A stretch of DNA of 64,000 nucleotides from Pseudodesulfovibrio pelocollis (GTDB lineage Bacteria; Desulfobacterota; Desulfovibrionia; Desulfovibrionales; Desulfovibrionaceae): the NCBI RefSeq assembly GCF_030282845.1, contig NZ_JASTWE010000008.1:1-64000 (forward strand). The letters run 5' to 3'. Positions 9,398-23,567 of this stretch are shown piece after piece. The position numbers and the translations under genes are program-made. How positions within the stretch are numbered: position 1 is the first letter of the stretch; every line of letters begins with the position of its first letter. The notes under the pieces are model-generated. The model did no database searches. It saw only the letters and a list, made by a program, of their open reading frames with translations, and was not told the DNA's origin.

Positions 9398-9817
9398 ATG
9401 CAGCGCGACAGGGAGACGGATGAGGCTGTGGTGGGCCGTTTTGAGGGGGCCATGGGGCGGATCAGGCAGGTGTTTGGGGTGCGCACGCAGGTGGAACTGG
9501 CCGAGCGGCTCGGGGTGCGCCAATCGTCCGTGTCTGACGCCAAGCGGCGGTGCTCGATACCGGCCGAGTGGCTGCTGACCATCTGGCGGGCCACCGGGGC
9601 CTCGCCGGACTGGATCATGGAGGGGGACGCGTGCGGGCATCGCTACGCCGTGGCCTCCACCGAGCCGGGCCAGCCGATCAACGCCGTGGCCCTGCGCCGG
9701 GAGATCGAGGCCGAAGTGCGGGCCGAGCTGGACACCCTGACCATGGACCAGCTCATTGAGCGGCTGCAGGACAAGCGGCCTGACATCGAGATCCGCATCC
9801 CGGCCAGGACGGCCTAG
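9398..9817 (+). CDS. HTH protein, CI-repressor N-terminal type
   Basis: 139 residues. Residues about 12-70 match CI-type N-terminal domains: R-I-R-Q-V-F-G-V-R-T-Q-V-E-L-A-E-R-L-G-V, R-Q-S-S-V-S-D-A-K-R-R, then P-A-E-W-L-L and P-D-W-I. The end is a helix (D-T-L-T-M-D-Q-L-I-E-R-L-Q). Ribosome site AGGAGGA. It is a second repressor-like HTH gene in this prophage, on the early strand, so it probably tunes early expression rather than maintaining lysogeny. Confidence 0.7.
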   Translation: MQRDRETDEAVVGRFEGAMGRIRQVFGVRTQVELAERLGVRQSSVSDAKRRCSIPAEWLLTIWRATGASPDWIMEGDACGHRYAVASTEPGQPINAVALRREIEAEVRAELDTLTMDQLIERLQDKRPDIEIRIPARTA

Positions 9818-9826
9818 GGGGCTGGT

Positions 9827-9916
9827 ATGGCGTGGGAAATGGGCATGGTCATCGGGCTGGCCGTGGTGGTGTGCCTGCTGATCCGGGCGTGCGAGAAGGG
9901 ATGGAGGAAGCCGTGA
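9827..9916 (+). CDS. 29-residue membrane peptide
   Basis: Short frame ATG...TGA coding for a peptide that starts M-A-W-E-M-G-M-V and continues with ten hydrophobic residues and a basic end (A-C-E-K-G-W-R-K-P). GGGGGCTGGT lies upstream. Its stop overlaps the next start as TGATG, which supports translation. A single membrane helix with a cytosolic basic tail is likely. Function unknown. Confidence 0.45.
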   Translation: MAWEMGMVIGLAVVVCLLIRACEKGWRKP

Positions 9917-10407
9917 TGCAGGATATTCGAGCCATGCGGCGGGAGCGGGTGGCCGAGGTGATCCGGCGGTTGTTGCCGGAAAATCCCGAGAGCGTCCTGG
10001 GCCGGGACATCATGGCCGTGGTCGACCACGGGCTGCCGGTGAACGCGCAGTTCGTGTCTGCGGCGATGCTCAACCGGTATCTGGCGTGGCTTGGGCTGAC
10101 GCGGGTGGAGTGCGGGCGGATGGTGGCCTGGGCCGTGGACGGCGCGATGCTGGAACTGCTCAAGGCCGGGCTCGCGCCCGGGGGCGGGCCAGCTGGGAGC
10201 GGGCCAGCTGGGAGCGGGCCAGCCGTGACCGAGGTTGCGGCGACCGGGGCTGCGGCGGTGGAAAATCCGGAGCCGGACGGGCCGGAGAGGGCCGACGTGC
10301 CTTGCGCGCCGTGCAGGCCTGCCGCGCAGGGCCATGAACGGGGATTTCTCGACGACGAGTTCGAGCCGGTGGGAGACTCCATCTTCAACCAGGGAGCGTA
10401 CCTATGA
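9916..10407 (+). CDS. hypothetical early phage protein with short tandem repeat
   Basis: 163 residues from the ATG at 9916, whose first base is the last base of the preceding stop; GGAGGAAG is in the right place upstream. The N-terminal half has helices (M-R-R-E-R-V-A-E-V-I-R-R-L-L and L-N-R-Y-L-A-W-L-G-L). The middle is a low-complexity linker containing G-P-A-G-S repeated, and the end is acidic (F-L-D-D-E-F-E-P-V-G-D). Could be a two-domain adaptor. No family recognised. Confidence 0.55.
   Translation: MQDIRAMRRERVAEVIRRLLPENPESVLGRDIMAVVDHGLPVNAQFVSAAMLNRYLAWLGLTRVECGRMVAWAVDGAMLELLKAGLAPGGGPAGSGPAGSGPAVTEVAATGAAAVENPEPDGPERADVPCAPCRPAAQGHERGFLDDEFEPVGDSIFNQGAYL
10186..10224 (+). repeat. 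15-bp tandem repeat, 2.6 copies
   Basis: GGGCCAGCTGGGAGC is present twice without change and then partly a third time. It encodes G-P-A-G-S units in a linker of the surrounding gene. Slippage there would change linker length in frame, since the unit is five codons. Confidence 0.9.
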
Positions 10408-10610
10408 TCGGCATCACACCACCCACGGTGCGGGAGCGGCGGCCAGGGCCGGGCAACCACAAGCTGCCCCTGCGCTGCACGGACGAGGGGTGCCCCTCGC
10501 GCCGGGAGTGCAAGCGGCCGGGGTTTGCGGGCGAGCCGCACGATTTCAAGCACAACCGGGGCGAGGGCGCGATCTGCGCCTACTTTGTGAGCCGGGAGGG
10601 GGAGGCGTGA
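10404..10610 (+). CDS. small cysteine-containing phage protein
   Basis: 68 residues, overlapping the previous gene by 4 bases. Four cysteines occur as C-T-D-E-G-C, R-R-E-C-K-R and I-C-A-Y-F; with a histidine in P-H-D-F-K-H they could hold zinc or an iron-sulfur cluster. Its end overlaps the next gene in the same style. Function unknown. Confidence 0.5.
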   Translation: MIGITPPTVRERRPGPGNHKLPLRCTDEGCPSRRECKRPGFAGEPHDFKHNRGEGAICAYFVSREGEA

Positions 10611-10816
10611 GCGGGCGTGACAGAAAGAGCCGCGACCTGGGGCCGGACCGGGCGCGCTGCGCGGACTACGACTGCCCGGCCTGGGAGGCCGGGTGCGCGC
10701 GGGCCGAGACCCAGCTGGGGCTGGGCCGCTACTGCTGGCTGCCCCTGACCCGGCCCAGGGGGGCCAAGGAGTGCAGGCGGCGGATTGATCCGGTGACGCT
10801 CAAGGAAGGGAGGTAG
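10607..10816 (+). CDS. small cysteine-rich phage protein
   Basis: 69 residues with a GTG start that overlaps the stop of the previous gene. Five cysteines: C-A-D-Y-D-C, E-A-G-C-A-R, R-Y-C-W-L and K-E-C-R-R. A metal-binding fold is likely. The tight overlap and similar cysteine pattern suggest it works with the preceding protein. No family recognised. Confidence 0.5.
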   Translation: MSGRDRKSRDLGPDRARCADYDCPAWEAGCARAETQLGLGRYCWLPLTRPRGAKECRRRIDPVTLKEGR

Positions 10817-10818
10817 GC

Positions 10819-11007
10819 ATGGCGAGGACGGTGCATGAGGCGGCAAAGGCGTTCATGGAGGAGGTTCTCTGGCGGGCCGAGATCGCGCCGGTGCTGCGCA
10901 GGTTGGGCGTGCGCACGGATCGCGCTGTGGAGGGGCCGAGGCGGGGCAAGGGCGGCGGTTTGACGGGTGCGGAGCGGCGTGCGCTGGACGGGAGGGACGG
11001 GCGATGA
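10819..11007 (+). CDS. hypothetical early phage protein
   Basis: 62 residues behind a strong AAGGGAGG ribosome site. The first half is a helix (H-E-A-A-K-A-F-M-E-E-V-L-W-R-A-E-I-A), the second half is basic and glycine-rich (G-P-R-R-G-K-G-G-G). May bind nucleic acid. No family recognised. Confidence 0.5.
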   Translation: MARTVHEAAKAFMEEVLWRAEIAPVLRRLGVRTDRAVEGPRRGKGGGLTGAERRALDGRDGR

Positions 11008-11255
11008 GCTTGGTACCGAGTGGCTGCGCTTTGTTTGACGCCAGGAAGTGCCCGATAGACCACACTGGGCAGGGCTTCACTGCCATCTGCGCGGCGGTGG
11101 CCTGTGCTGGCAAGGTGCTGGAGTCCGAGATTGCGACCCTCAAGGCCAAGCTGGCCGAGGCCAACGCCATCAAGGACGAGCTGGGCCGCGCGGTCAGGGT
11201 CATGCAGGAGACGATCAACGGGCGGTTTGTGAAGGGGGTGGGTGATGCCGAGTAA
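11004..11255 (+). CDS. hypothetical phage protein with coiled coil
   Basis: 83 residues; ATG overlaps the preceding TGA. Three or four cysteines in the first 35 residues, then a helix from about residue 38 with heptad-like leucines (V-L-E-S-E-I-A-T-L-K-A-K-L-A-E-A). It overlaps the next gene by about 11 bases. No family recognised. Confidence 0.5.
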   Translation: MSLVPSGCALFDARKCPIDHTGQGFTAICAAVACAGKVLESEIATLKAKLAEANAIKDELGRAVRVMQETINGRFVKGVGDAE

Positions 11256-12189
11256 AATACAATGGACTGGCCGCACCTGGAACCCGATGGTCGGGTGTTC
11301 CAAAATTTCCCCGGCGTGTGACCATTGCTACGCCGAACGCATGGCCTTCCGGCTGGCGCACAATCCCAAGGCTCCCATTGCGTATCGGGTCGTCACCGAC
11401 GCCGGAACGTGGAACGGCCAGACAGCCCTGGTCGAGTCGGTACTGGCGACTCCGCTGCGCTGGCGCAAGCCGTGCCGGGTGTTTGTGGGGTCCATGACGG
11501 ACCTGTTCCATCCGACCGTGCCGGACGAGTGGCTGGACCGGGTGTTTGCGGTCATGGCCCTGACGCCGCACATCACCTATCAGGTGCTGACCAAGAGGCC
11601 GGAGCGGATGCGCCGCTATATGGAGGGCTGCCAGAGAGGGGCTTCCGACATTGGCGGCGAGTTCCCATGGCCCAACCTGTGGCTGGGCGTCACAGCCGAG
11701 AATCAGGCCAGGGCCGAGGAGCGTATCCCTGTGCTGCTCGATACCCCGGCGGCGGTCCGGTTCGTGAGCGTGGAGCCGATGCTTGGGGCGGTGGACCTGC
11801 GGGAATATATCAAGGGCGAGCGTTGGTTCACATCCGATTCCCCAATGTATCGGTGGCTCGATTGGGTCATCTGCGGCGGCGAATCCGGCCCAGGGGCGCG
11901 GCCCATGCACCCGGAGTGGGCGCGGGGGCTGCGCGACCAGTGCCAGGAGGCCGGGGTGCCGTTCTTTTTCAAGCAGTGGGGCGAGTGGGGCGGCCTGCCC
12001 TACCGACTCATGGCTGAAAAATGCGTGGCCGTCACACTCGATGGACAGACATATAGCCCGGATGCGGCGGCATTCAACGGCGAATCGCTGCCCGATGGGG
12101 CTGTCATTCGCTGCCGTGTCGGCAAGAAGGCGGCTGGCCGCCTGCTGGACGGGCGGGAGTGGAACGAGTTTCCGGGGGTGCGCGTCTGA
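11245..12189 (+). CDS. phage Gp37/Gp68-family (DUF5131) protein, three-Cys motif
   Basis: 314 residues from the ATG at 11245 (a GTG one codon earlier at 11242 is also possible). The family signature is present: I-Q-W-T-G-R-T-W-N-P near the start, then C-S-K-I-S-P-A-C-D-H-C-Y-A-E, a three-cysteine cluster (C-x6-C-x2-C). Later come G-S-M-T-D-L-F-H, V-L-T-K-R-P-E-R, W-L-G-V-T-A-E and C-G-G-E-S-G-P-G-A-R-P. The fold is thought to be TIM-barrel-like and related to radical SAM proteins, but the spacing differs from the usual C-x3-C-x2-C. It overlaps the methyltransferase by one base, so the two are co-translated. Substrate unknown. Confidence 0.85.
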   Translation: MPSKIQWTGRTWNPMVGCSKISPACDHCYAERMAFRLAHNPKAPIAYRVVTDAGTWNGQTALVESVLATPLRWRKPCRVFVGSMTDLFHPTVPDEWLDRVFAVMALTPHITYQVLTKRPERMRRYMEGCQRGASDIGGEFPWPNLWLGVTAENQARAEERIPVLLDTPAAVRFVSVEPMLGAVDLREYIKGERWFTSDSPMYRWLDWVICGGESGPGARPMHPEWARGLRDQCQEAGVPFFFKQWGEWGGLPYRLMAEKCVAVTLDGQTYSPDAAAFNGESLPDGAVIRCRVGKKAAGRLLDGREWNEFPGVRV

Positions 12190-14096
12190 TGCGTAGCCTC
12201 TTCGACATCACCGGCTCCGCGTCCGGCGACGAGATCGTGGTGGACCTGTTCGCGGGCGGCGGCGGGGCCAGCGAGGGCATCCGCATGGCGCTGGGGCGCG
12301 ACCCCGAAGCGGCGGTGAATCACAACCCGCTGGCCGTGGCCATGCATGCGGCCAATCACCCGGGCACCGTCCATTTCACGGACGACGTGTGGGCCGTGTC
12401 GCCCTCATGGGTGACGCAGGGCCGCAAGGTTGGTCTGCTGTGGGCCTCGCCCGACTGCACCCACTTCAGTAAGGCCAAGGGCGGCGCACCGGTGCGCAAC
12501 GACCGCATCCGCTCCCTGGCCATGGTCCTGGTGGACAAGTGGATACCAGAGGTGCGCCCGAGGATCATCATCATGGAGAACGTGGAGGAGATGACCACCT
12601 GGGGGCCGCTGGACTGCCGGGGGCGGATCATCGACGCGGCCAAGGGCGACACGTTCCGGGCGTTCATCCGGCGGATTCGCCGGGCCGGGTATGCGGTGGA
12701 GTGGCGCGAGCTGCGCGCCTGCGACTATGGCGCGCCCACCATCCGCAAGCGGCTGTTCCTCATTGCCCGGTGCGACGGCCAGCCCATTGTCTGGCCCGCG
12801 CCGACCCATGGCGACCCCAAGAGCGAGGCCGTGCAGGCTGGCGAGCTGCTGCCATGGCGCACGGCTGCCGAGTGCATTGACTGGTCCATCCCCTGCCCGT
12901 CGATTTTCGACACGTCCGAGGAGATCAAGGCCAAGCATGGCATCAACGCCAAGCGGCCTCTGGCCGAGAAAACGCTCAAGAGGATCGCCGAGGGCATCCG
13001 GCGATATGTGCTGGAGGCCGAGCGGCCGTTCGTGGTCAACCTGACCCACGGTGTGCGCCTGGAGGACGTGGCCGAGCCCATGCGGACCGTGACCGGGGCG
13101 CACCGTGGCGAAAAGGCCGTGGTCACGCCCTGCATTTCAAGCCCAGCACATTCCACCTCAACTGGTCGATCAAAATACGTTTGGGGCCCTCTTGAGCCGT
13201 TGAGGACCGTGACCGGAGGGGGTGGGTTCACCTTGGTGTCGCCGATGCTGGAGGCCCACTACGGCGGCGATGGGGCCCGGGCCATGCGCTTGCCGGACAT
13301 CCAGGAGCCGCTGCGGACCATGAGCACCGAGAACCGGTTTGGACTGGTTTCCCCAACCCTGATCCAGACCGGCTATGGAGAGCGCGAGGGGCAGGCCCCG
13401 CGCGTGCCCGGCCTGGACAAACCGCTCGGCACTGCCGTGGCTGGAGGGGTCAAGCATGCGGTTGTTTCGGCCTTCCTTGCCAAACACTTCACGGGCGTGG
13501 TGGGCGCGCCCGTGACGGCCCCGGCTCCCACGGTCACCACAGTGGACCACAATGCGCTGGTGGCGGCCAGTTTGAGCGCCTTCTATGGCAAGAGCGTCGG
13601 ACAGGAGGCCGGAGAGCCGTCCCTGACCGTGACAAGCAAGGAGCGCCACGCCCTGGTGGCCTCCAACTTGGTCAAGCTGCGCGGCGACAACGTGGGCCAA
13701 CCGAGCGACCAACCCCTGGCGACCGTTTCCGCCGGCGGGACGCACCATGCCGAGGTGCGGGCGTTCCTGATGAAGTATTACAGCGAGGGCGGGCAGGATC
13801 AGGCCGCGAGCGATCCTATGCACACGCTGACCACCAAGGCGCGCATGGGCCTCGTGACCGTGGCGGGCCAGGAGTACTACATCGCCGACATCGGGATGCG
13901 CATGCTCCAGCCGCGCGAGTTGTTCCGCGCCCAGGGCTTCCCGGACTCGTACATCATTGACCGGGGCGCGGACGGCAGGCCCATGACCAAGACCGATCAG
14001 GTGCGCATGTGCGGCAATTCGGTCTGCCCGCCCATGGCCGCCGCCCTGGTGGCCGCCAACGTGGCGCTCAGAGTGGCCGGGGAGGTGGCGGCGTGA
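12189..14096 (+). CDS. DNA cytosine-5 methyltransferase with repeat-built recognition region
   Basis: 635 residues from the ATG that overlaps the preceding stop. Motif I is F-A-G-G-G-G at 21-26, the catalytic motif IV is S-P-D-C-T-H-F-S with Cys90 (in place of the usual P-C-Q), motif VI is E-N-V at 130-132, and motif VIII-like Q-x-R is replaced by I-R-K-R-L-F. The C-terminal part has P-R-E-L-F-R-A-Q-G-F-P and the closing C-G-N-S-V-C-P-P. Between residues about 297 and 560 sits an array of eight degenerate repeats that replaces a standard target-recognition domain. It transfers methyl groups from SAM to cytosine in DNA, likely to protect phage DNA from host restriction. The start is chosen by overlap. 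Confidence 0.88.
   Translation: MRSLFDITGSASGDEIVVDLFAGGGGASEGIRMALGRDPEAAVNHNPLAVAMHAANHPGTVHFTDDVWAVSPSWVTQGRKVGLLWASPDCTHFSKAKGGAPVRNDRIRSLAMVLVDKWIPEVRPRIIIMENVEEMTTWGPLDCRGRIIDAAKGDTFRAFIRRIRRAGYAVEWRELRACDYGAPTIRKRLFLIARCDGQPIVWPAPTHGDPKSEAVQAGELLPWRTAAECIDWSIPCPSIFDTSEEIKAKHGINAKRPLAEKTLKRIAEGIRRYVLEAERPFVVNLTHGVRLEDVAEPMRTVTGAHRGEKAVVTPCISSPAHSTSTGRSKYVWGPLEPLRTVTGGGGFTLVSPMLEAHYGGDGARAMRLPDIQEPLRTMSTENRFGLVSPTLIQTGYGEREGQAPRVPGLDKPLGTAVAGGVKHAVVSAFLAKHFTGVVGAPVTAPAPTVTTVDHNALVAASLSAFYGKSVGQEAGEPSLTVTSKERHALVASNLVKLRGDNVGQPSDQPLATVSAGGTHHAEVRAFLMKYYSEGGQDQAASDPMHTLTTKARMGLVTVAGQEYYIADIGMRMLQPRELFRAQGFPDSYIIDRGADGRPMTKTDQVRMCGNSVCPPMAAALVAANVALRVAGEVAA
13077..13862 (+). repeat. coding repeat array in the methyltransferase
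   Basis: Eight units of roughly 31-39 residues start at about residues 297, 336, 373, 411, 446, 477, 508 and 543. Each opens with P-x-x-T-V-T or a variant, and most continue with x-L-V-S-P-x-L or a V-x-A-F-L strand and an aromatic-glycine pair (Y-G). The units have diverged at DNA level, so this is old duplication with drift rather than recent copying. Confidence 0.8.
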
Positions 14097-14581
14097 GCGA
14101 CATTTACACCGATCTCCACGCCAACCCCTGGGGGCTGTACCGGATCGACGGCACTGGCCCATACAACGGCCATTTCTGGCCCATGCGGGACGACGAGTAC
14201 CGGGCATACGAGGACTTGGACGACCGGCGGATCGAGCACCTTCAGGACCGCTTGAAGCGGGTGTGGATCGTCGGGCTGCAGGATGGCCGGTGGATGTCTC
14301 AGGGGCACATCTACAAGGAGCAATTTTTCGCCACACGCGAGGCGGCGCTGCGGTCCGCCGTAGCCCGCTATCTCCGGCTTCTGCGGTACGCGAACCGCAA
14401 GTGGGAGGAATCAGGCGACGCGTACACGCGCAGGATTCCGGACGACCTGTTCGAGAAGCTGGTGGAGTGGGCCTTTTCGATCATTGGGCGGGTCGCGCCA
14501 GCTGCGCGGGCGTCTGGGCGGGTGGAGCAGCTAGTGGTGCCGACCGAGTGGAGAAACCTTCCGCTGATGAGGGGGATGTGA
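14093..14581 (+). CDS. hypothetical early phage protein
   Basis: 162 residues with a GTG start that overlaps the methyltransferase stop; GGGGAGG is upstream. Aromatic and charged residues dominate (G-H-F-W-P-M-R-D-D-E-Y-R-A-Y). There are no cysteine clusters or membrane segments. A helical middle part contains T-R-E-A-A-L-R-S-A-V-A-R-Y-L-R. I do not recognise a family; co-translation with the methyltransferase suggests a related role. Confidence 0.55.
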   Translation: MSDIYTDLHANPWGLYRIDGTGPYNGHFWPMRDDEYRAYEDLDDRRIEHLQDRLKRVWIVGLQDGRWMSQGHIYKEQFFATREAALRSAVARYLRLLRYANRKWEESGDAYTRRIPDDLFEKLVEWAFSIIGRVAPAARASGRVEQLVVPTEWRNLPLMRGM

Positions 14582-14814
14582 TGAGAGACAAGGAAAGAGG
14601 CTTATACAACAAGTTCAACGTGACCCGGAAGGACGGGAGCAGCGGGGTGGGCGGCAAGCACGAGCTCTGCAAGTATTTCGTGCTCGACCTGACGCACGAT
14701 TCGCACGCCATACCGGCCATCCGCGCCTATGCGGACTCGTGCCGGGCCGAGTATCCGGCCCTGGCTGGCGATTTGGACAGGATTTCCGAGTACATGGCGG
14801 AGCGGCTGGCATGA
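14581..14814 (+). CDS. hypothetical phage protein
   Basis: 77 residues; ATG shares its first base with the preceding stop. The protein opens with a basic segment (R-D-K-E-R-G-L-Y-N-K-F-N-V-T-R-K-D) and includes G-G-K-H-E-L-C-K-Y-F-V-L-D-L, followed by helices. Proteins of this kind are frequent in phage early regions without a known function. Confidence 0.6.
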   Translation: MRDKERGLYNKFNVTRKDGSSGVGGKHELCKYFVLDLTHDSHAIPAIRAYADSCRAEYPALAGDLDRISEYMAERLA

Positions 14815-15047
14815 CCCCAAGCGAGATCGAGCGGCAGGAGTTCCTGATGCGCGCCCGGCCCGGCATTCATTATGGGCGGCTGGTGTGCGGGCGGTGCCAG
14901 GGGCATGGTGTGGAGCCCGAGGAGGACAGGATGTGGGGCATGCCCGAGGACGAGCCGTGCAAGGCGTGCCTCGGGCACCGCGTGGTTGAGAGGCGGGTGA
15001 CGGTCATTGTGGAGGACACGCCGGTGGGCGTGAGGAGGTCGGGGTGA
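14811..15047 (+). CDS. small protein with DnaJ-type cysteine repeats
   Basis: 78 residues, overlapping the previous gene by 4 bases. Two C-x-x-C-x-G-H units occur, C-G-R-C-Q-G-H-G and C-K-A-C-L-G-H-R, about 30 residues apart. This is half of a DnaJ-type zinc-binding region and is enough for one zinc ion. There is no J domain. It could be a small zinc adaptor or DNA-binding protein in the early operon. Confidence 0.6.
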   Translation: MTPSEIERQEFLMRARPGIHYGRLVCGRCQGHGVEPEEDRMWGMPEDEPCKACLGHRVVERRVTVIVEDTPVGVRRSG

Positions 15048-15493
15048 TGGAGCTGGCGCAGGTGATCGAGGCGAGGCTCGGGCGGGCGTATTCGGCCAGG
15101 GACGTGGCTGCGGCGTTGCGCAAGTCGCCGGACTGGGTCTATAGAAATGCAGCCGACCTCGGCGGGGTTCTGATCGGGGGGCGGTGGCAGTTCTATGAAA
15201 ACAGCATATTGGAAGCATTAAGACCCACCAGGACCGGAGGAGCGAGTGCCCATCAAACGGAAGAATCGCAAGACGGGAAGAATGCAGTGGTTCGGCAGGA
15301 TCACCCTGCCGGACGGGCGGCGCAAGGAACGGCTGATGCCCACCAAACGGGCGGCCATGGAATGGGAGGCGTTGATCAGGCAGAAGTTGAGCGAGTGCTC
15401 ATCGACGCGGACCCCTGCGGTCTCCTTGCACACGCTCATGACAAAGCATCTGCTCGCGCTCGACGCCAAGGGCGTGGCCAAAGGCACCTATGA
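15047..15493 (+). CDS. excisionase-like HTH protein overlapping the integrase
   Basis: 148 residues if read to its stop. The first 65 residues contain Y-S-A-R-D-V-A-A-A-L-R-K-S-P-D-W-V-Y-R-N and G-G-R-W-Q-F-Y, the winged-helix pattern of excisionases and related helix-turn-helix_17 proteins. The remaining 80 residues overlap the integrase frame by 248 bases and are low-complexity (His, Gly, Arg, Ala), so they may be translated but not structured. ATG at 15047 overlaps the preceding stop. It would bias integrase toward excision. Confidence 0.6.
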   Translation: MELAQVIEARLGRAYSARDVAAALRKSPDWVYRNAADLGGVLIGGRWQFYENSILEALRPTRTGGASAHQTEESQDGKNAVVRQDHPAGRAAQGTADAHQTGGHGMGGVDQAEVERVLIDADPCGLLAHAHDKASARARRQGRGQRHL

Positions 15494-16349
15494 CGACAAG
15501 ACGCTCGCCTTTACCGAGCTGCTCGACTGGCCGGGCGTATCGCCGGTCATGCCGGTGGACGAGCTGGCCCACGACGCGGTGCGCCAGTGGCTCGACCACA
15601 TTGCCGAGACGCGCAGCGGGCATCGGGCAAACACGTTTCGCAAGCACATCATGCGCTTGTGGAGTTGGGGACGGCGGGCGCGGCTCGTGGACGGGGACTG
15701 CCCCTGGGACGTGGAGCCGTACAAGCAGGACCGCTCGGAGAAGTATGTGCCGCCGGAAGAAGACTTCTGGGCCGTGTATGCCATCGCCGAGCAGGTGCCT
15801 AAGCCGTTCCATCACAGCAACAGTGAAACGATCTCGCAGCCGCATCGCAGGCGCATGATGCTGGCCTACCTGCACACCGCCGCGCGGCGAAGCGAGATAT
15901 TCAACCTCAAATGGGAGGATGTCGATTTCAGGAACGGGCGCATACGCCTGTATACCCGAAAGCGCGCCTCCGGCCGGGAGGGGGACTGGATTCCCCTGAC
16001 CGACCAGCTCGCCCAGGCGCTCCGGGAACAACGCCTGGAGACCGGCTGGCGCGAGCATGTGTTCATCAATCCGGCCACGGACAAGCCATACGCCTATGCC
16101 AACGACATGGTGCGCAAGATGTGCCTGCGGGCAGGGGTCCGGCTCTTCGGATTCCACTCGATCCGGCATCTGTCGGCATCGCTGCTGGACCAGGCCGGGG
16201 TGCCCCTGGCCACGATCCAGATGATCCTGCGGCACACCTCGGCCACGACCACGGCAAGGTATGTGCACAGCATCAAGGACGCCACGGAGGCCGTCAACAA
16301 AGCCTTCGGCGGCAAGGTATTGGAGATGAAAAAAGCCTCCAGCGGGTAA
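15246..16349 (+). CDS. int: prophage tyrosine integrase
   Basis: 367 residues with GTG start after ACCGGAGGAGC. The N-terminal arm-binding part (residues 1-45) has W-F-G-R-I-T-L-P-D-G-R-R-K. The catalytic residues fit the family: Arg214, His304-x-x-Arg307, His330 and the nucleophile Tyr339. It performs site-specific recombination between phage and host attachment sites. It lies at the end of the prophage next to a tRNA-Val gene whose 3' end faces it. The stop codon lies within the loop of a hairpin. Confidence 0.92.
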   Translation: MPIKRKNRKTGRMQWFGRITLPDGRRKERLMPTKRAAMEWEALIRQKLSECSSTRTPAVSLHTLMTKHLLALDAKGVAKGTYDDKTLAFTELLDWPGVSPVMPVDELAHDAVRQWLDHIAETRSGHRANTFRKHIMRLWSWGRRARLVDGDCPWDVEPYKQDRSEKYVPPEEDFWAVYAIAEQVPKPFHHSNSETISQPHRRRMMLAYLHTAARRSEIFNLKWEDVDFRNGRIRLYTRKRASGREGDWIPLTDQLAQALREQRLETGWREHVFINPATDKPYAYANDMVRKMCLRAGVRLFGFHSIRHLSASLLDQAGVPLATIQMILRHTSATTTARYVHSIKDATEAVNKAFGGKVLEMKKASSG

Positions 16350-16360
16350 CTGGAGGCTTT
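16332..16360 (+). terminator. hairpin over the integrase stop codon
   Basis: An 11-bp perfect stem (AAAGCCTCCAG with CTGGAGGCTTT) has a 7-base loop that contains the integrase TAA. Only three T residues follow the stem, then GAAAAG. It may end transcription or limit read-through toward the tRNA, which is on the opposite strand. Confidence 0.6.
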
Positions 16361-16432
16361 GAAAAGGTGAGTCAAAAGGTGAGCAGGCATTCGGGCTATC
16401 TCATCAATCGACTCGTAACACTTTGAAAGAAC

Positions 16433-16475
16433 TGGTGGGCGATACGGGATTTGAACCTGTGACTTCCACCGTGTG
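16433..16475. other. predicted prophage attachment site (3' part of tRNA-Val)
   Basis: Tyrosine integrases often recombine within the 3' half of a tRNA gene, leaving the integrase next to it. The CCA end of the tRNA faces the integrase at a distance of 84 bases. The other attachment copy would be off the left side of the window, so its core length cannot be measured. Confidence 0.5.
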
Positions 16476-16509
16476 AAGATGGCACTCTGACCAGCTGAGT
16501 TAATCGCCC
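16433..16509 (-). tRNA. tRNA-Val (anticodon CAC)
   Basis: The minus strand reads GGGCGAT, then a D arm with A-G-C-T-G-G-T, an anticodon stem CCATC/GGTGG with loop TTCACAC, and a T arm with TTCAAAT. The acceptor stem closes with ATCGCCC. The anticodon in the loop is CAC, which reads GTG for valine. The CCA end is encoded in DNA (16433-16435). One A:C mismatch is present in the T stem, which is acceptable. Confidence 0.92.
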
Positions 16510-16630: not shown

Positions 16631-18733
16631 TCATGACCGGCTGACGCAGCCGTCCTCGTTGCACTCCCGCGCGGGCAGGTCGCGGTTGTAGCAGGTCAGG
16701 CCGCAGCGCAGGCAGCGGCAGGCCTCGTGCTTGGCCTCCTCGCTGCTCAGGGCGCCCTCGATCTCCTTGAAGGTGCAGACGCGCTGGTCGCAGCCGATGA
16801 GGTGCGGCACGGTGGAGCGCTTGCGATACCCCACGTCGGGCACATGGGTGAACATGGTGTAGGGGATCAGATCGCGCTGCACCTTGGCGGAGTAGTGGGG
16901 GGCGCCGTCGGTCAGGTACTGGTGGATGGAGCGGGCGGCCTTGCGCCCCTCGCCCAGGGCGGTGATGACGATGCCCGGGCCGGTGTGCATGTCGCCGCCG
17001 GTGAAGACGTGGGGCAGGGCGGTCTGGAGCGTCACCGGATGAGCGGCCAGGGTGCGCCACTTGGTCTGCTCCAGCGGGCAGTTGCCCCCCTCGTCGTAGA
17101 GGCAGGAAAGCTCGGGCTTCTGGCCGATGGCCGTGTACACGGTGTCCGTATCGATGATGGTCTCGGAGCCCTCCACGGGAATGGGGCTGCGCCGGCCGGT
17201 CTCGTCCGGCTCGCCAAGCTCCATGCGGATGTACTCCACATGGGTGACGTGGCCGGACTCGTCGCTGATGATGCGGGTGGGCGCGGCCAGGAACAGGTAT
17301 TTGACGCCTTCCTCCTCGGCTCCGATGATCTCCTCTATGTTGGCGGGCATCTCGCCCTTGGTCCGGCGGTACATGAGGGTCACGTCCGCGCCCAAGCGCA
17401 CGCTGGTGCGGGCCGTGTCGATGGCCGTGTTGCCGCCGCCCACGACCACCACCTTGCGCCCCACGCCGGTTTCCATGTTCAGGCCCACCTTGGTCAGGAA
17501 CTCGGTGCCGGTCTCCACGCCCTTGGTATCCTCGCCCTCGATGCGCAGGGTCATGTTCATCCACGCGCCGATGCCGAGGAACACGGCCTCGAACCCGTCC
17601 TCCTTGAGGCTGTCGAGGTCGAAGTCGGTGCCAAAGGCCTTGCCGTGGACCACGTCGATGCCCAGGTCGAGGATGCCCTGGATCTCCCAGTCGAGCACGG
17701 CCTTGGGCAGCCGGTATTCGGGGATGCCGTAGCGCAGTTGGCCGCCGAGGCTGGGCATGGACTCGAAAATTGTCGGGCTGTGGCCCAGGCGGCGCAGATA
17801 GAAGGCGCAGGAGAGCCCGGCCGGGCCGCCGCCCACCACGGCCACCCTGCGGCCGGTTTCAGGCGCGCAGGTGACGGGCTGGCGCTGGCCAGAGTTCATC
17901 TCCCAATCGGCCACGTATCGCTTGACCATGTTGATGCCCACCGGGGCGTCCACATGGGTGCGGCGGCAGGCGCTTTCGCAGGGATAGGGGCAGACCCGGC
18001 CGATGGTCAGCGGCATGGGAATGCGCTCGCGGATGGTCTCCAGCGCCCCGGCGAAATCGCCGCGCGAGGTCTGCTCGATGTAGCGGGGGATGTTGATCTG
18101 CCCCGGGCAGCGCTGGCGGCAGGGGGCCAGGCAGTCGGTGATTTCATTGAGGTGGGTCAGCCGGGCGGTCATGCCCCAGATGGTGATGACCCCGCGCGGG
18201 CAGACCTGGGCGCAGGCTCCGCAGGCCGTGCACAGGGCCGGGTCCACCACGGGGTAGCCCTGGGGGCCCATGTCGATGGCTCCGAACTGGCAGGCCGTGA
18301 CACAGGTGCCATGGCCGAGGCATCCCTCGGGGCACATCTTGTTGCCGCCGTAGAGCAGGTTCTGGGCGCGGCAGTCGCTGACGCCCGCGTAATCGTAGAT
18401 TTCCTCGGCCCGGATGCCGCCGGTGCAGTCCACAAAGGCGATCTGCTTCTCCATGGACGAGAAGCCGAGGCCCATGATGGCCGCCACATTGGTCGCCACC
18501 TCGTCGCCGCCGATGACGCAGACCGTGGCCCCGGCCTTGCCGTCCACCACGCCCTGGGCCGCGGCCGCGCAGCCGGGGAAGCCGCAGCCGCCGCAGTTGG
18601 CCCCGGCCAGCACGCTCTCCACTTCGGCGATGCGCGGGTCTTCATAGACGTAAAGGAGCTTCGAGGCCACGGCCAGGATGGCCGCCGCCGTGAAGCCGAT
18701 GCCGAGCAGGACGAGTACCGATGTCATGATCAT
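16631..18733 (-). CDS. rnfB: RnfB fused to a GltD-like flavin oxidoreductase
   Basis: 700 residues, far longer than a classical RnfB. Residues 5-28 are a membrane anchor. A C-G-G-C-G-F-P-G-C cluster (about 47-55) and two further 4Fe-4S clusters (C-P-E-G-C-L-G-H-G-T-C..., C-T-A-C-G-A-C-A-Q-V-C) complete the RnfB part by about residue 190. From about residue 205 begins a GltD-like module: cysteines, a G-G-G-P-A-G-L-S-C FAD site, a G-G-G-N-T-A-I-D-T-A nucleotide site and G-I-V-I-T-A-L-G-E-G. A cysteine-rich tail closes it. It should accept or deliver electrons between ferredoxin, NAD(P)H and the membrane complex. It is the last gene of the operon. Confidence 0.88.
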   Translation of the reverse strand: MIMTSVLVLLGIGFTAAAILAVASKLLYVYEDPRIAEVESVLAGANCGGCGFPGCAAAAQGVVDGKAGATVCVIGGDEVATNVAAIMGLGFSSMEKQIAFVDCTGGIRAEEIYDYAGVSDCRAQNLLYGGNKMCPEGCLGHGTCVTACQFGAIDMGPQGYPVVDPALCTACGACAQVCPRGVITIWGMTARLTHLNEITDCLAPCRQRCPGQINIPRYIEQTSRGDFAGALETIRERIPMPLTIGRVCPYPCESACRRTHVDAPVGINMVKRYVADWEMNSGQRQPVTCAPETGRRVAVVGGGPAGLSCAFYLRRLGHSPTIFESMPSLGGQLRYGIPEYRLPKAVLDWEIQGILDLGIDVVHGKAFGTDFDLDSLKEDGFEAVFLGIGAWMNMTLRIEGEDTKGVETGTEFLTKVGLNMETGVGRKVVVVGGGNTAIDTARTSVRLGADVTLMYRRTKGEMPANIEEIIGAEEEGVKYLFLAAPTRIISDESGHVTHVEYIRMELGEPDETGRRSPIPVEGSETIIDTDTVYTAIGQKPELSCLYDEGGNCPLEQTKWRTLAAHPVTLQTALPHVFTGGDMHTGPGIVITALGEGRKAARSIHQYLTDGAPHYSAKVQRDLIPYTMFTHVPDVGYRKRSTVPHLIGCDQRVCTFKEIEGALSSEEAKHEACRCLRCGLTCYNRDLPARECNEDGCVSRS

Positions 18734-18746: not shown

Positions 18747-19322
18747 CTAGGAGGCCATGCCCTTGAAGGCGAAGAAGGCCAGCGACATGAGCCCGGCCAT
18801 GATCAGGGCCAGGGGCGTGCCGCGCAGGCTGGTGGGCACCCGAGCCAGATCGAGCCGCTCGCGGATGCTCGCCAGCACCACCAGGGCGAGCATGAAGCCC
18901 GCGCCCGAGGCGATGGAAAAGATGATCGTCTGAAGCAGGGTGTATTCCTCGCGCTGGCAGATGATGGCGATGCCGAGCACGGCGCAGTTGGTGGTGATCA
19001 GCGGCAAGAAGATGCCCAGCGACTTGTAGAGGGGGGGCACGGCCTTCTTCAGGAACATCTCCACGAACTGGACCAGGGAGGCGATGACCAGGATGAAGGT
19101 GATGGTCTGGAGGTAGGCGAGATCAAAGGGCACCAGCAGGAAGCGCTGCACGCACCAGGTGATGGCTGCGGCCATGGTGGCCACGAAGACCACGGCCAGC
19201 CCCATGCCGATGGCCACGCCCGATTCCTTGGACGTGCCGATGAAGGGGCAGTTGCCCAGGTATTGCGCCAGGACGATGTTGTTGACGAAGATGGCCGCGA
19301 TGACAAGGGTGAAATAATCCAT
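18747..19322 (-). CDS. rnfA: RnfA, membrane subunit of the Rnf complex
   Basis: 191 residues, six hydrophobic segments. Starts M-D-Y-F-T-L-V-I-A-A-I-F-V-N-N-I-V-L and contains G-N-C-P-F-I-G-T-S and T-N-C-A-V-L-G, each with the cysteine that holds an intramembrane iron centre in this family. RnfA and RnfE are sister subunits that face each other in the membrane. It is 13 bases from rnfB and 9 bases from rnfE. Length and motifs are standard. Confidence 0.95.
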   Translation of the reverse strand: MDYFTLVIAAIFVNNIVLAQYLGNCPFIGTSKESGVAIGMGLAVVFVATMAAAITWCVQRFLLVPFDLAYLQTITFILVIASLVQFVEMFLKKAVPPLYKSLGIFLPLITTNCAVLGIAIICQREEYTLLQTIIFSIASGAGFMLALVVLASIRERLDLARVPTSLRGTPLALIMAGLMSLAFFAFKGMAS

Positions 19323-19331: not shown

Positions 19332-20009
19332 CTATATCCTCGGTTTGGTGGCGCACAGGCCGCAGGTCTTGCAGTCGTGGATCGGGCCTTCGATGGCCTC
19401 AAGGCCCCTTGTCCTGCGCTGCCAGTTGGTCAGAGCGTTCATGCCCGCCAGTACCAGCCCGAGGCAGACGAAGGCACCGGGTGCCTCGATCATGAAGGCG
19501 AAGGGTTCATACCAGTCCCCGGCCAGTTCCATGCCGAACCACGTGCCATAGCCGAACATCTCGCGGACGCTGCCCAGAAAGGTCAGGGAGAGGGCGAAGC
19601 CGATGCCCATGCCCAGGCCGTCAGCCACGGCCAGATGGGTCGGGTTCTTGGAGGCGAAAGCCTCGGCCCGGCCCAGGATGATGCAGTTGACCACGATGAG
19701 CGGCACGAAGATGCCGAGCTGGAGATAGAGCGGATAGGCGTAGGCCTGCATCAAAAGCTCGACGCAGACCACCAGCGAGGCGGCCACCACGATGAAGCAG
19801 GCGATGCGCACCTTGGCCGGAATGGCCTTGCGCAGCAGCGAGACGAGCAGGTTGGAGAGGGTGAGCACGAAGATGACGGCCAGCCCCATCCCGAGGCCGT
19901 TGTAGGCCGTCTTGGTCACGGCCAGCACCGGGCACAGGCCGAGCACTATCTTGAAGGGGGGGAGGTCCTTCCACAGCCCCTTGGAGAATTCCTTCCACAG
20001 TCTGTTCAT
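19332..20009 (-). CDS. rnfE: RnfE, membrane subunit of the Rnf complex
   Basis: 225 residues from the ATG that begins M-N-R-L-W-K-E-F (longer upstream in-frame start at 20030 is less likely). It has six hydrophobic segments and the two cysteine motifs of the family, G-L-C-P-V-L-A-V and V-N-C-I-I-L-G. The end carries an extra C-K-T-C-G-L-C segment that I do not expect in RnfE. It overlaps rnfG by 4 bases. Together with RnfA it forms the intramembrane electron path. Confidence 0.93.
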   Translation of the reverse strand: MNRLWKEFSKGLWKDLPPFKIVLGLCPVLAVTKTAYNGLGMGLAVIFVLTLSNLLVSLLRKAIPAKVRIACFIVVAASLVVCVELLMQAYAYPLYLQLGIFVPLIVVNCIILGRAEAFASKNPTHLAVADGLGMGIGFALSLTFLGSVREMFGYGTWFGMELAGDWYEPFAFMIEAPGAFVCLGLVLAGMNALTNWQRRTRGLEAIEGPIHDCKTCGLCATKPRI

Positions 20010-20596
20010 GGCGTATCCTGGTCGCTCCACCTTTTGGGGAACCTGTCCTTGATTCTCGAATACATGCGGATGGCCTCGTTGACGGCGGCCACGGTGGCGG
20101 CGGACGAGAGGGTGGCCCCGGCGATGGCCGCGATGTCGCCGCCCTGGCTTTGCAGGGCCATATCCTGGCCCGGGCGGCTGCCGAACTGCTCGCGGAATTC
20201 CGGCTCCACCACCCGCGAGCCCAGGCCGGGTGTTTCCTTGAGAGTGGTGATGCCGATGCCCGTGATGGAGCCGTCGGCCGTGGCGAACCCGACCATGACG
20301 CCGATGTCGCCGCCGTAGCCACGGCCAAAGGCTTCGATGGCCACCCCGGCGAGTTGGCCGTCAACCATGGCCGGGAAGACAGTGACCGCTTCGCCGTCGA
20401 GGTCGATGGCCACGCGGTCCAGGACCGGATTGTTGTCCGCATTGGCAAATATCTGGTTCAGTGCCGGGCCCTGCACGTAGGTCAGCACCTGCTCCTCGAT
20501 GCGCGGCCCGGTGGCCTGTCGCACGGCGGCCAGGGTCAGGCCCGAGAGGCCGCAGATGAGGGAAAGGACGAGGATCATCCGCAGTGCTTCACGCAT
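20006..20596 (-). CDS. rnfG: RnfG, flavoprotein subunit of the Rnf complex
   Basis: 196 residues. An N-terminal membrane segment (residues 8-26) is followed by a periplasmic FMN-binding domain. The covalent flavin attachment motif appears as A-G-A-T-L-S-S near residue 163, with the threonine as link. An earlier T-L-K-E-T-P-G-L-G-S motif is typical of the family. The FMN transferase ApbE that would load it is not visible in this window. It overlaps both neighbours. Confidence 0.94.
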   Translation of the reverse strand: MREALRMILVLSLICGLSGLTLAAVRQATGPRIEEQVLTYVQGPALNQIFANADNNPVLDRVAIDLDGEAVTVFPAMVDGQLAGVAIEAFGRGYGGDIGVMVGFATADGSITGIGITTLKETPGLGSRVVEPEFREQFGSRPGQDMALQSQGGDIAAIAGATLSSAATVAAVNEAIRMYSRIKDRFPKRWSDQDTP

Positions 20597-21579
20597 GTGG
20601 CTTGGTCCTCCTTTTCCTGGGTGAGGGTGTAGGGGCCGCCAAAGGGCCTCGGGCGGATGCGGTCGAGGAGCGGGGTGAAGAGATTGGCCAGCAGGATGGC
20701 GAAGGGGACCCCGTCGGGATAGATGCTGTAGACCCGGATGATGATGACCATGACCCCGGCCATGAGGCCATAGATGAGGCTGGGGATGCGCCCGATGGGC
20801 GATGAGGCCGGGTCAGTGGCCAGGAAGAACGCGCCGAAGACCGCGCTGCCCGTCAGCAGGTGCAGCAGCGGCGCGGCGTGTGCCGCCGGATCGAGGAGCT
20901 GGTATATCCAGGCCGTGCACAGCAGTCCGGCGATAAAGGCGACCGGGACTTCCCAGGCGATGTGGCGGCGGATGAGCAGGAACACGCCACCGGCCAGCAG
21001 GGCGGCGATATGGACCGCGCCCAGCCCGCCAAGCTGGTGGCCGGTGAACAGGGCCATGGGGTCCAGGGAGGCCACGGCGTCGGTGCCGAAGAATTTCAGC
21101 TGCTGGAGCGGGTCGGGCAGGGTCGTGCCGAGCATGGTGGTGTTGGTGTCCATGGCCTTGGGCCAGGAGATGCGGCAGACGGCCCAGCCCACCAGAGGCG
21201 GGCACAGGGGGGTGGCCCCAAGGCCGCCGAAGATGGCCTTGCCCAGTCCGATGGACGAGGCCGAGCCCACCGTGACCAGCCACCAGGGGGCCGAGGCCGG
21301 GAGCAGGCAGGCAAAGAGCAGGCCGGTGAGCAGGGCGTGCAGGTCGTCTACGGCCGGATCGCGCCCGGCGAGCCTGTTGCACAGCGCCTCGGTGGTCACG
21401 GCCACGGCGCAGGACAGGGCCATGACGCGCACCGCGTCCATGCCAAAGACCATGGCGGCCATGACCATGGCGGGCATCAGGGCGATGATGGTCTCGCCCA
21501 TGTGCCCCTTGATGGTCCTGCCGCAGTGGACATGCGGGGCCATGGACACGGTCAGGATGGGGCGTTGCGGCCTAAGCAT
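20575..21579 (-). CDS. rnfD: RnfD, membrane subunit of the Rnf complex
   Basis: 334 residues when started at M-L-R-P-Q-R-P-I-L-T-V, which overlaps the end of rnfC by 8 bases. Nine or so hydrophobic segments. Family motifs include S-M-A-P-H-V-H at the start, D-L-H-A-L-L-T-G-L-L and the C-terminal Y-P-D-G-V-P-F-A-I-L-L-A-N. FMN-bearing threonine is expected in the middle loop (G-T-T-L-P), but I cannot assign it surely. It overlaps rnfG by 22 bases. Confidence 0.93.
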   Translation of the reverse strand: MLRPQRPILTVSMAPHVHCGRTIKGHMGETIIALMPAMVMAAMVFGMDAVRVMALSCAVAVTTEALCNRLAGRDPAVDDLHALLTGLLFACLLPASAPWWLVTVGSASSIGLGKAIFGGLGATPLCPPLVGWAVCRISWPKAMDTNTTMLGTTLPDPLQQLKFFGTDAVASLDPMALFTGHQLGGLGAVHIAALLAGGVFLLIRRHIAWEVPVAFIAGLLCTAWIYQLLDPAAHAAPLLHLLTGSAVFGAFFLATDPASSPIGRIPSLIYGLMAGVMVIIIRVYSIYPDGVPFAILLANLFTPLLDRIRPRPFGGPYTLTQEKEDQATCVKHCG

Positions 21580-22792
21580 CGTTTTTCTCCGGGCGGGTGT
21601 CTGCGGGGCGGCTGCGTCCCTGGTCATTGGCCGGGGTGTCGGCCGGGACAATGGCCGAGCGCAACAGGGCCAGTTCGTACTTGGCCAGTCTGATGTACTG
21701 GAGCAGCGGCCGCCGGGCCTTGCACCAGTAGCCGCAGATGCCGCATTCGATGCAGGAGTGGATGTGAAATGTTTCGGTCCGGGCGAACTGCTTGAACTCG
21801 GCGCAGCGGCTGATCATGCCGGGCATGATCCGGGCCGGGCAGCGGCGCTCGCATTCACCGCAGCCGAGACAGGGGCCGTCCACGGGCACAAAGGCCCGGG
21901 TCTTGCTCAGGATGTGCAGACCGGTGGTGTCCTTGTCCACGCCCTGGTCGATGTTCAGGGCCGGGATGCCGCGCATCAGGCCGCCCAGGATCACATGGTC
22001 GCCGTCCTCCACGCCGCCTCCGGCCTCGGCCACGAGGAACCCGGCAGGCGTGCCGACATGGACCAGACGGTTCTGTCCGGCGATGGTCATGACGGTCTGG
22101 GTGACGGGACGGCCGGTCTCCATGACGCGGCCGATGAAGTACAGGTCGCGCACGGACAGGATCACCGCGTTGTCCGGGTGTCTGCCCGGCAGGGTTTCCC
22201 CGCCGGTCACGGCCCTGACCACCAGCGGGTCCAGCCCGTTCGGGTAGACGGGCGGCACATGCACGACCGTGCAGTCGGCAAAGGCGTTGGCCCGGTTGCC
22301 CCGGGCGGCCACCAGGAACAGTCTGGAGTGATCGATCACGCGACGGGCGGTGTCGAGGCCGAGGTCCACGGTCTTGCGGTAGTCCCGCAGCAGGGGATCG
22401 TGAATGGATATTCCGGGCTCGGGCGGCACCGCGTTGACGATGAGCACGGGGGCGCGGCGTAGAGGGCGGACATCGATGCCCATGGAGCGCAGCCAGCGGC
22501 GCAGGATGTCGCCACCCTCCGAGGGGGCGGCCTGCGGCTCGGCCCTGCCGTCGTCCGTGGTCTCGATGAGCATGGCGAAACGGTCCACCGCGCGGATGGT
22601 CCCGGCCAGGGGGGCGTGCATGTCCCCCCGGTCGTCCCCGGCCTCGGCGATCAGGGTGCCTGCGAGGACCTGGTCGCCCTCGGCAAGCACGGGCCTGTGC
22701 CCCTGAAGCGGGACGCGCAGGCGATCAGGCCGCGCGCCCTTGACCAGGGGGCCGGTTTCTCCGGTGAGCAGGCTGAAGCTGAAATCGGTCAT
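21572..22792 (-). CDS. rnfC: RnfC, iron-sulfur subunit of the Rnf complex
   Basis: 406 residues. Two 4Fe-4S clusters are near the end: C-L-G-C-G-E-C-E-R-R-C-P and C-I-E-C-G-I-C-G-Y-W-C. The N-terminal part has the biotin-carrier-like fold (V-L-A-E-G-D-Q-V-L-A-G-T-L and H-A-P-L-A-G-T-I-R). I cannot find the G-x-G-G-A-G-F-P NADH-binding loop expected after that region. It normally takes NADH electrons or gives them to it. Gene follows the cytochrome by 13 bases. Confidence 0.92.
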   Translation of the reverse strand: MTDFSFSLLTGETGPLVKGARPDRLRVPLQGHRPVLAEGDQVLAGTLIAEAGDDRGDMHAPLAGTIRAVDRFAMLIETTDDGRAEPQAAPSEGGDILRRWLRSMGIDVRPLRRAPVLIVNAVPPEPGISIHDPLLRDYRKTVDLGLDTARRVIDHSRLFLVAARGNRANAFADCTVVHVPPVYPNGLDPLVVRAVTGGETLPGRHPDNAVILSVRDLYFIGRVMETGRPVTQTVMTIAGQNRLVHVGTPAGFLVAEAGGGVEDGDHVILGGLMRGIPALNIDQGVDKDTTGLHILSKTRAFVPVDGPCLGCGECERRCPARIMPGMISRCAEFKQFARTETFHIHSCIECGICGYWCKARRPLLQYIRLAKYELALLRSAIVPADTPANDQGRSRPADTRPEKNDA

Positions 22793-22805: not shown

Positions 22806-23567
22806 TTATCTCATGTGGCATCTGAAGCAGGCATCGTCGCCGTAAGGGCCGCTCGTTTTCGCTTCGTGGCAGCCCATGCATTGCGTGTGAAAGGCCGTTG
22901 CCGTGGTAGGCACCAGCTGGTCCGTTGGATCGGCGTGGCAGTCAGAGCAGGGGCGCAGGGCTGGCTTGGCTTCGTCCGTCTCCCCGGTCTGCGGCGGTGC
23001 GGCGGGCTGGCGCACATGGCATGTGGCGCAGCCGGTGACGCCCGCGTCAAAGAGGTCGTCGTGGCAGGAGGCGCAGCGCGCATGGGCCGCGTCCTTGCGC
23101 GAGGGGATGTCGGTCCGTCCGCCGTGGCAGTTGGCGCAGGATTGCGGGGTCGGTTCGATGCTCGCGTCGTGGTGGCAGGCCCGACAGTTCCCGGCGGCGT
23201 AGTCCTCGGCGTGGCCGTTGTGGTCGAAGTTGTCGATGGTCGCCTCCGGGTGGTGACAGGACGCGCACTGCTTCGGGTCCATGGTCTCCTGGTGCCCGAG
23301 GATGAAGGGCTGGTCGAATTTGGGCACATGGCAGCTTGAGCAGGCGGGCGGGGCGGGGTCATCTCCCGAGGTATGGTGGCAGTCGGCGCAGGCGCGCTCC
23401 GGCATGTCGGCGTGGATCTTGTGGTCGAAGATGACCTTGCCGCCCTTGTTCTCAAGCAGGATGCGCACGGGCATCGCGTCAGTCCGGGTCGGGACGAGAT
23501 AACCGGCCAGGGCCAGGATGAAGATGACCCCCGTCAGCAGGGCGATGGGCAGGAAGCGACTGTTCAA
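22806..23567 (-). CDS. Rnf-associated decaheme cytochrome c
   Basis: 253 residues with an N-terminal membrane segment (about 6-25) that may be uncleaved. There are ten C-x-x-C-H heme motifs: C-A-D-C-H, C-S-S-C-H, C-A-S-C-H, C-R-A-C-H, C-A-N-C-H, C-A-S-C-H, C-A-T-C-H, C-S-D-C-H, C-M-G-C-H and C-F-R-C-H. It acts in the periplasm and in Desulfovibrio such genes head the rnf operon. It probably exchanges electrons between the Rnf complex and the periplasmic cytochrome c3 pool. First gene of the operon. Confidence 0.93.
   Translation of the reverse strand: MNSRFLPIALLTGVIFILALAGYLVPTRTDAMPVRILLENKGGKVIFDHKIHADMPERACADCHHTSGDDPAPPACSSCHVPKFDQPFILGHQETMDPKQCASCHHPEATIDNFDHNGHAEDYAAGNCRACHHDASIEPTPQSCANCHGGRTDIPSRKDAAHARCASCHDDLFDAGVTGCATCHVRQPAAPPQTGETDEAKPALRPCSDCHADPTDQLVPTTATAFHTQCMGCHEAKTSGPYGDDACFRCHMR

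Follow-up and report, generated by a model that had tools for sequence, protein, structure and literature searches.

The closest described counterpart of the locus considered here is the Tol2-type Rnf complex. According to the published passages on Desulfobacula toluolica Tol2, in this complex RnfB is large and carries NAD sites and RnfC has no NADH domain, and a mode of action unlike the usual one was suggested; the same claims were repeated for Desulfococcus multivorans, in effect awaiting experimental verification (PMC5109826). The design is already known in words, and the idea that the large RnfB provides the pyridine nucleotide site instead of RnfC is present in outline in the same passages. 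A 2024 paper spoke of a "loss of rnfB" (PMC11434368), apparently a misreading of the Tol2-type design. The path of NAD(P)H electrons into sulfate reduction has been described as a long-standing mystery of Desulfovibrio energetics (PMC4215793).

The window analyzed here is a whole stretch of 64,000 nucleotides from Pseudodesulfovibrio pelocollis (contig NZ_JASTWE010000008.1, positions 1 to 64,000). Six core Rnf subunits, recognized with Pfam and NCBIfam, are encoded together in a single operon read from the minus strand in the order decahaem cytochrome c, rnfC, rnfD, rnfG, rnfE, rnfA, and rnfB (Table 1), and a genome search revealed only one Rnf in the host. The operon cytochrome was drawn as cytoplasmic in a 2024 survey; its N-terminal anchor, followed by ten CxxCH motifs, speaks for a periplasmic location. 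Directly downstream of rnfB, at 15246-16509, there are an integrase gene (tyrosine-recombinase-like, as judged by eye) and a tRNA-Val; together with phage-like short genes at ~7400-15500, they are taken as an integrated element adjoining the rnf operon. The sole ApbE flavin transferase found in the genome is encoded just outside the window (C8:64731-65555, L230), ~46 kb from rnfB, in contrast to published Desulfovibrio rnf operons, which end in rnfF/apbE.

Table 1. Features of the rnf operon and of the fused RnfB, with positions in the window
Feature	Positions	Strand	Evidence
Class III cytochrome c with ten haem motifs (10 CxxCH; decahaem) and an N-terminal anchor, opening the operon	22806..23567	-	
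rnfC, 406 aa, FMN/NADH loop absent, both [4Fe-4S] motifs present	21572..22792	-	
RnfC junction, residues 107/108, site of the missing canonical GxGGAGFPTHVK loop	22469..22474	-	Alignment
rnfD, DxxSxATPL flavinylation motif lost (Thr to Asp180), Cys at the equivalent of A. woodii N123	20575..21651	-	
rnfG, FMN-attachment threonine T162 present	20006..20596	-	
rnfE, cluster cysteines C33 and C116 present	19332..20030	-	
rnfA, membrane [2Fe-2S] cluster cysteines C25 and C113 present	18747..19322	-	
rnfB-gltD fusion, 700 aa	16631..18733	-	ORF at exactly these coordinates; Pfam, NCBIfam, relatives
RnfB N-terminal membrane helix, residues 2-26	18656..18730	-	Model helix; alignment with PDB RnfB 9eri_B and 7zc6_B
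RnfB FdI [4Fe-4S] site, Cys 47, 50, 55, 72	18518..18595	-	Cys in 44/44 fused RnfBs; PF04060
RnfB FdII dicluster region, Cys 134-178	18200..18334	-	Cys in 44/44; Fer4
RnfB Fer4_20 two-cluster domain, Lys271 at an unusual cluster-ligand position	17891..18133	-	Pfam, alignment; Lys precedent in StnC (PMC10482914)
RnfB FAD and NAD(P)-binding oxidoreductase module, residues 296-608	16911..17848	-	Pfam, motifs, AlphaFold, Foldseek
RnfB C-terminal CxxCxxxC, Cys 674, 677, 681	16691..16714	-	Kept in 43/43; aligns with NfnB residues 17-46

The original prediction of a 700-residue RnfB fused to a GltD-like FAD/NAD(P)H module was confirmed by Pfam and NCBIfam; its strand, which had been left unstated, is minus. 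Along the protein, Pfam recognized FeS (PF04060, residues 42-73), Fer4 (161-184), Fer4_20 (201-281), and Pyr_redox_2 (296-596, E = 1.2e-28), and the top NCBIfam matches were GltD-like NAD(P)-binding models (E = 6e-142), with RnfB models matching over residues 1-185. The fusion retains the membrane helix, the FdI cluster, which we take to be the electron donor to RnfA/E, and the FdII dicluster of ordinary RnfB, and all 14 cysteines are invariant in 44 fused proteins. Divergence from ordinary RnfB begins at about residue 190, where the latter enters a linker cluster and the FdIII dicluster, and the alignment shows that the GltD-like module replaces exactly this C-terminal FdIII half. As we infer from the Acetobacterium woodii structure (PMC11889175), the lost C-terminal half is likely the ferredoxin-docking end. 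The reading of such loci as a "loss of rnfB" (PMC11434368) is ruled out, the first 190 residues being RnfB with all its cysteines.

GltD/NfnB-type features are all present in the tail, including the FAD and NAD(P) glycine motifs (G301-G306 and G432-A437), conserved arginines (R341 and R456/R457), and the cluster cysteines. The module has the FAD motif and a full set of cysteines, and the NAD(P) glycine motif is less well kept in a small number of relatives. Because the C-terminal CxxCxxxC aligns with the N-terminal RCLxC of NfnB, the probable counterpart of which, in GltD as well, it is in permuted form, the cluster ligands look complete, in a permuted order. Structure prediction agreed with the assignment: the AlphaFold model of the FAD/NAD(P) module is mostly confident (pLDDT mostly 75-95 over residues 266-610), with mostly low confidence for residues 1-205 (15 sequences used), and the module retrieved NfnABC, StnC, and NfnB at the top of the Foldseek ranking, its fold also matching GltD and DPD. 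The hallmark of bifurcating NfnB, a Glu ligand of the proximal cluster, is absent from the window RnfB, which has Lys271 instead; K is found at this position in 36 of the 44 fused proteins. The StnC domain, with Lys where bifurcating NfnB has Glu, binds FAD and NADPH and provides a one-by-one electron feed from NADPH with no bifurcation (PMC10482914). NfnB-like bifurcation at the FAD of RnfB is therefore disfavoured by the lysine and by the StnC precedent.

RnfC indeed lacks the usual NADH loop, as had been proposed: the GxGGAxFPTxxK segment is deleted, and no match to Complex1_51K (PF01512) was found in the window RnfC. An intact Complex1_51K (NuoF/RnfC FMN-NADH) domain was likewise absent from the host genome at E <= 0.001. 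Along with this segment, NGxECE, YPQGxEK, and NVxT are motifs that hardly vary among the 17 canonical operons, and all four are lost in loop-less operons generally; beside the deletion, the window RnfC has NAVPPEP, YPNGLDP, and SVRDL. Both [4Fe-4S] motifs are present, and all eight cluster cysteines are invariant in loop-less operons. The RnfC fold is retained (model pLDDT 93), with a solved RnfC ranked first by Foldseek and NqrA next.

The losses extend to RnfD. Its DxxSxATPL motif was found in 17/17 canonical operons versus 0/59 loop-less ones, about two of the latter having Thr in that column outside such a motif. In the alignment with A. woodii, Asp180 of the window RnfD corresponds to the FMN-binding T156 and a Cys to the riboflavin ligand N123, and D249 of the riboflavin site (A. 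woodii numbering) stays D or E. The FMN threonine of RnfG and the cluster cysteines of RnfA/E are conserved in loop-less operons; one RnfE cysteine column varies in canonical operons. Counted over residues invariant in canonical operons, the numbers kept and lost in loop-less ones were 21 and 0 for RnfA, 18 and 1 for RnfE, 7 and 0 for RnfG, and 18 and 11 for RnfD. Since the RnfC and RnfD motifs are lost and the RnfG threonine and RnfA/E cysteines are kept, the return limb (RnfD FMN, RnfC FMN/NAD+) has, judged by these motifs, been dismantled, and an intact outbound limb (RnfB, RnfA/E cluster, RnfG FMN) remains. With RnfD affected as well, the change exceeds the moved pyridine nucleotide site of the original prediction. 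No earlier report of RnfD flavin-motif loss in a six-subunit Rnf was found in the open-access literature.

The fusion, the domain replacement, the lost and kept motifs, and their co-occurrence can be read directly from the sequences of 76 operons, which were hand-picked from search matches and are mutually related, so that the counts are not independent (L222 was reassigned to the loop-bearing group after inspection). Fused RnfB accompanies loop-less RnfC in 45 of 59 operons (among them the window and Salidesulfovibrio, whose copy is broken in the draft assembly), and none of the 17 loop-bearing operons has it, all 17 carrying a short RnfB. A short RnfB also occurs with loop-less RnfC in 13 operons, besides one truncated contig. 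A multihaem cytochrome gene was recognized in 35 of 43 fused operons. Full-length relatives (45-94% identity over ~690 residues) were found in numerous genomes of the family, which often encode 2-4 paralogues each, and also in many other families of the phylum. A chance or assembly join is ruled out by these many conserved full-length relatives.

The proposal that the fused module supplies the pyridine nucleotide site instead of RnfC was supported in part. In its favour are the FAD and NAD(P) motifs, the cysteine set, the fold of NADPH binders, and the 0/17 co-occurrence with loop-bearing RnfC; against it, the 13 operons with loop-less RnfC and short RnfB show that the fusion is not an obligatory substitute. 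Moreover, since the module is located on the input arm, in place of the likely ferredoxin-docking end of RnfB, it would be no mechanistic stand-in for the RnfC site. Strict compensation, with the fusion found exactly where the RnfC loop is lost, was rejected on the same 13 operons.

Related proteins were also found outside rnf operons. In L111 (3385-8367), a second RnfB-GltD fusion lies beside NuoF-like (GGAGFP present) and NuoE-like genes, in a genome that additionally has canonical and fused Rnf; this fusion is perhaps a membrane-anchored Stn-like transhydrogenase. Soluble FdII-GltD proteins of ~600 aa without the anchor or FdI are encoded in L118 (3361-5160), L119, L120, and L128, the gene in L118 being located among those for 2-oxoacid:ferredoxin oxidoreductase and succinyl-CoA ligase. 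Solitary RnfB-GltD fusions, with no rnf genes in the stretch read, occur in L112, L113, L115, L117, and L127.

In a FastTree phylogeny of RnfD, E, A, and G, the loop-less operons all fall into a single clade (0.84); an interim IQ-TREE tree, which carries no support values, agrees with this grouping. The loop-less operons with short RnfB are nested twice among the fused ones in the FastTree phylogeny, and L223-L225 are basal in the IQ-TREE one. Loop loss may have preceded the fusion, given that these three short-RnfB operons branch at or near the clade base. The short RnfBs of Desulfovibrionaceae loop-less operons group with canonical RnfB (0.995), and the core subunits of the same operons fall inside the fused clade, which suggests that the fused rnfB was replaced there by a canonical gene. 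Operons of this kind, with the cytochrome, loop-less RnfC, and a short RnfB of canonical type that gene replacement apparently brought in, are L090-L096, L101, L104, and L107. One genome contains four fused-type rnf operons (L043-L046). Another surveyed genome has rnf clusters at 3.10 and 3.11 Mb, canonical (L221) and fused (L110), a layout as in D. multivorans; L110, probably D. multivorans Rnf2 by this layout, falls in the same clade as the window operon.

The reading that we favour, and to which we would give an even chance, is a Tol2-type Rnf transferring electrons one way, from NAD(P)H through RnfB, RnfA/E, and RnfG to periplasmic cytochrome c, or in reverse. It is favoured because the outbound limb is intact, NAD(P)H appears to have taken the place of ferredoxin at the input port, and the return limb is dismantled; with the latter disabled, electrons would most likely leave at RnfG to a periplasmic multihaem cytochrome c. 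NAD(P)H would be oxidized at the FAD of the GltD-like tail, a preference for NADPH being a guess, and single electrons would pass the clusters of Fer4_20 and FdII before reaching that of FdI, which is mobile. From there, they could move on to the [2Fe-2S] cluster held in the membrane by RnfA/E, where the A. woodii model places ion pumping, then to the FMN bound covalently to RnfG at the periplasmic face, and finally to a periplasmic multihaem cytochrome c, for example, the operon decahaem cytochrome. In the reverse mode, periplasmic electrons from H2 or formate would reduce cytoplasmic NAD(P)+ with the ion gradient being spent. NAD(P)H as the substrate, the cytochrome as the exit, the direction, and the coupling ion are all predictions from sequence.

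One-way transfer is supported by a complete FAD/NAD(P)/Fe-S module with the residues and fold of NADPH-binding relatives. There is also a precedent in two-subunit Nqr/Rnf-like complexes without the RnfD threonine, for which one-way flow from NAD(P)H to extracytosolic acceptors was proposed (PMC10979944). On the other side, no such cytochrome was recognized in the stretch read of eight fused operons, of which some are cut off by contig ends, and the branches at or near the clade base include three loop-less operons with a short RnfB. In D. alaskensis, the RnfB of which may be fused or short, the operon cytochrome gene dhcA had almost no fitness phenotype, whereas rnf had one (PMC4215793). RnfD might bind FMN non-covalently. 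The strongest point against one-way transfer is the invariance of the eight RnfC cluster cysteines, which suggests that electrons still reach RnfC, and a cytoplasmic partner of RnfC should be kept as the main rival.

Such a partner would imply that only the sites were exchanged and the U-shaped path was kept, with NAD(P)H reacting at RnfB and the RnfC [4Fe-4S] clusters docking a carrier of single electrons, either ferredoxin or some other acceptor of the cytoplasm, in a cytoplasm-to-cytoplasm oxidoreductase. We regard this as unlikely, even though the eight cysteines and the RnfC fold are kept, rnfC is present in every complete operon of this type examined, the riboflavin-site D249 stays D or E, and the passages on Tol2 and D. 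multivorans state that RnfC needs an acceptor or donor other than NAD, which their authors left unnamed (PMC5109826). In 59/59 operons the RnfD FMN motif is lost, which interrupts the established G-to-D step, and in the window Cys stands in place of the riboflavin ligand N123. By the A. woodii mechanism, moreover, energy-conserving flow would run uphill if NAD(P)H reacted at RnfB and ferredoxin docked at RnfC. Decidedly less credible is RnfB as a soluble-side hub, in which FdII-GltD would act mainly as ferredoxin:NAD(P)+ oxidoreductase and the membrane part would draw on the junction. Consistent with it are the soluble FdII-GltD protein of other families, whose gene in L118 is surrounded by those for 2-oxoacid:ferredoxin oxidoreductase and succinyl-CoA ligase, and the fusion beside NuoE/NuoF-like genes in L111, but fused RnfBs of rnf operons retain the FdI cysteines (44/44) and the anchor, and the part lost is the FdIII half, the likely ferredoxin-docking end.

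The same two changes were proposed for the origin of Nqr, namely a new NADH:FAD input module and loss of the RnfC/NqrA flavin site (PMC4014512), and NqrA directly follows RnfC in the Foldseek ranking of the RnfC model. An Nqr-like NAD(P)H:menaquinone oxidoreductase, with the input module swapped as in Nqr and quinone reduced near RnfD, nevertheless has little probability in our view: NqrB has covalent FMN, the motif for which is gone from RnfD here, and RnfC retains the Fe-S clusters that NqrA lost. The Rnf of these sulfate reducers is usually modelled as an ordinary ferredoxin:NAD+ pump, and is so annotated routinely in Desulfovibrio (PMC4215793), in agreement with the operon, gene order, and core subunits, all of which are those of Rnf. 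In that case the GltD domain would be an accessory decorating RnfB, and RnfC would still reduce NAD+. Since RnfC has none of its FMN/NADH motifs left, RnfD has no flavin motif, and RnfB lacks the half that likely docks ferredoxin, the sequence argues strongly against this role, which we consider scarcely tenable.

One-way transfer may apply to the clade as a whole. Somewhat short of an even chance, we propose that a whole clade of six-subunit Rnf was rebuilt from a U-shaped ferredoxin:NAD+ pump: with the RnfB tail swapped and the RnfD and RnfC flavins discarded, it would pump one way, from NAD(P)H to periplasmic cytochrome c, and, running in reverse, would use hydrogen or formate of the periplasm to form NAD(P)H. 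Such a rebuilt pump could explain the use of NAD(P)H by these bacteria. If so, the energetics of many marine sulfate reducers would have to be recalculated, and a pump reduced to its outbound limb would amount to a natural experiment that shows whether Rnf/Nqr complexes pump ions at RnfA/E or at RnfD.

Among known systems, the window operon resembles, by description, the Tol2-type Rnf (Rnf2 of D. multivorans; HRM2) in its RnfB of ~700 aa with NAD-binding sites, an RnfC without the NADH-oxidoreductase domain, and a cytochrome gene in the cluster (PMC5109826, passages on these complexes). The RnfD flavin motif, the exact domain replacement, distribution, and phylogeny do not appear in these passages, and the RnfD motif loss, the exact domain swap, the co-occurrence of fusion and loop loss, and the clade history are new here. 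With canonical Rnf (A. woodii, Clostridium tetanomorphum, Azotobacter), it shares the six-subunit core, the RnfA/E cluster, the RnfG FMN, and the RnfB anchor with FdI and FdII; the canonical complex differs in having the FdIII half of RnfB, the RnfD FMN, and the RnfC FMN/NADH site, and no decahaem cytochrome in the operon. Na+-NQR is similar in the NADH entry at the RnfA/E-side subunit and in the RnfC homologue without the NADH/FMN site. It differs in the unrelated FNR-type module of NqrF, covalent FMN in NqrB, NqrA without Fe-S clusters, and quinone as the acceptor; an NqrF-type FNR/2Fe-2S input subunit is absent here, the input module being GltD-like. Two-subunit Nqr/Rnf-like complexes (PMC8238504, PMC10979944) also have an NAD(P)H domain, an RnfD-like subunit without the flavinylation threonine, an extracytosolic flavinylated subunit, and a proposed one-way flow, but they have no RnfA, B, C, or E, and their NAD domain is of the FNR type and fused to the RnfD-like protein. 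The module itself has the Fer4_20, FAD, and NADPH fold of GltD/NfnB-type proteins (StnC, NfnABC, NfnB, GltD, DPD), with Lys as in StnC, and, unlike them, forms the tail of a membrane-anchored RnfB. In Methanosarcina acetivorans, the rnf operon includes a multihaem cytochrome taking electrons on the outer side. The window operon is likened to it, by description, in having a multihaem cytochrome gene, the donor in M. acetivorans being ferredoxin.
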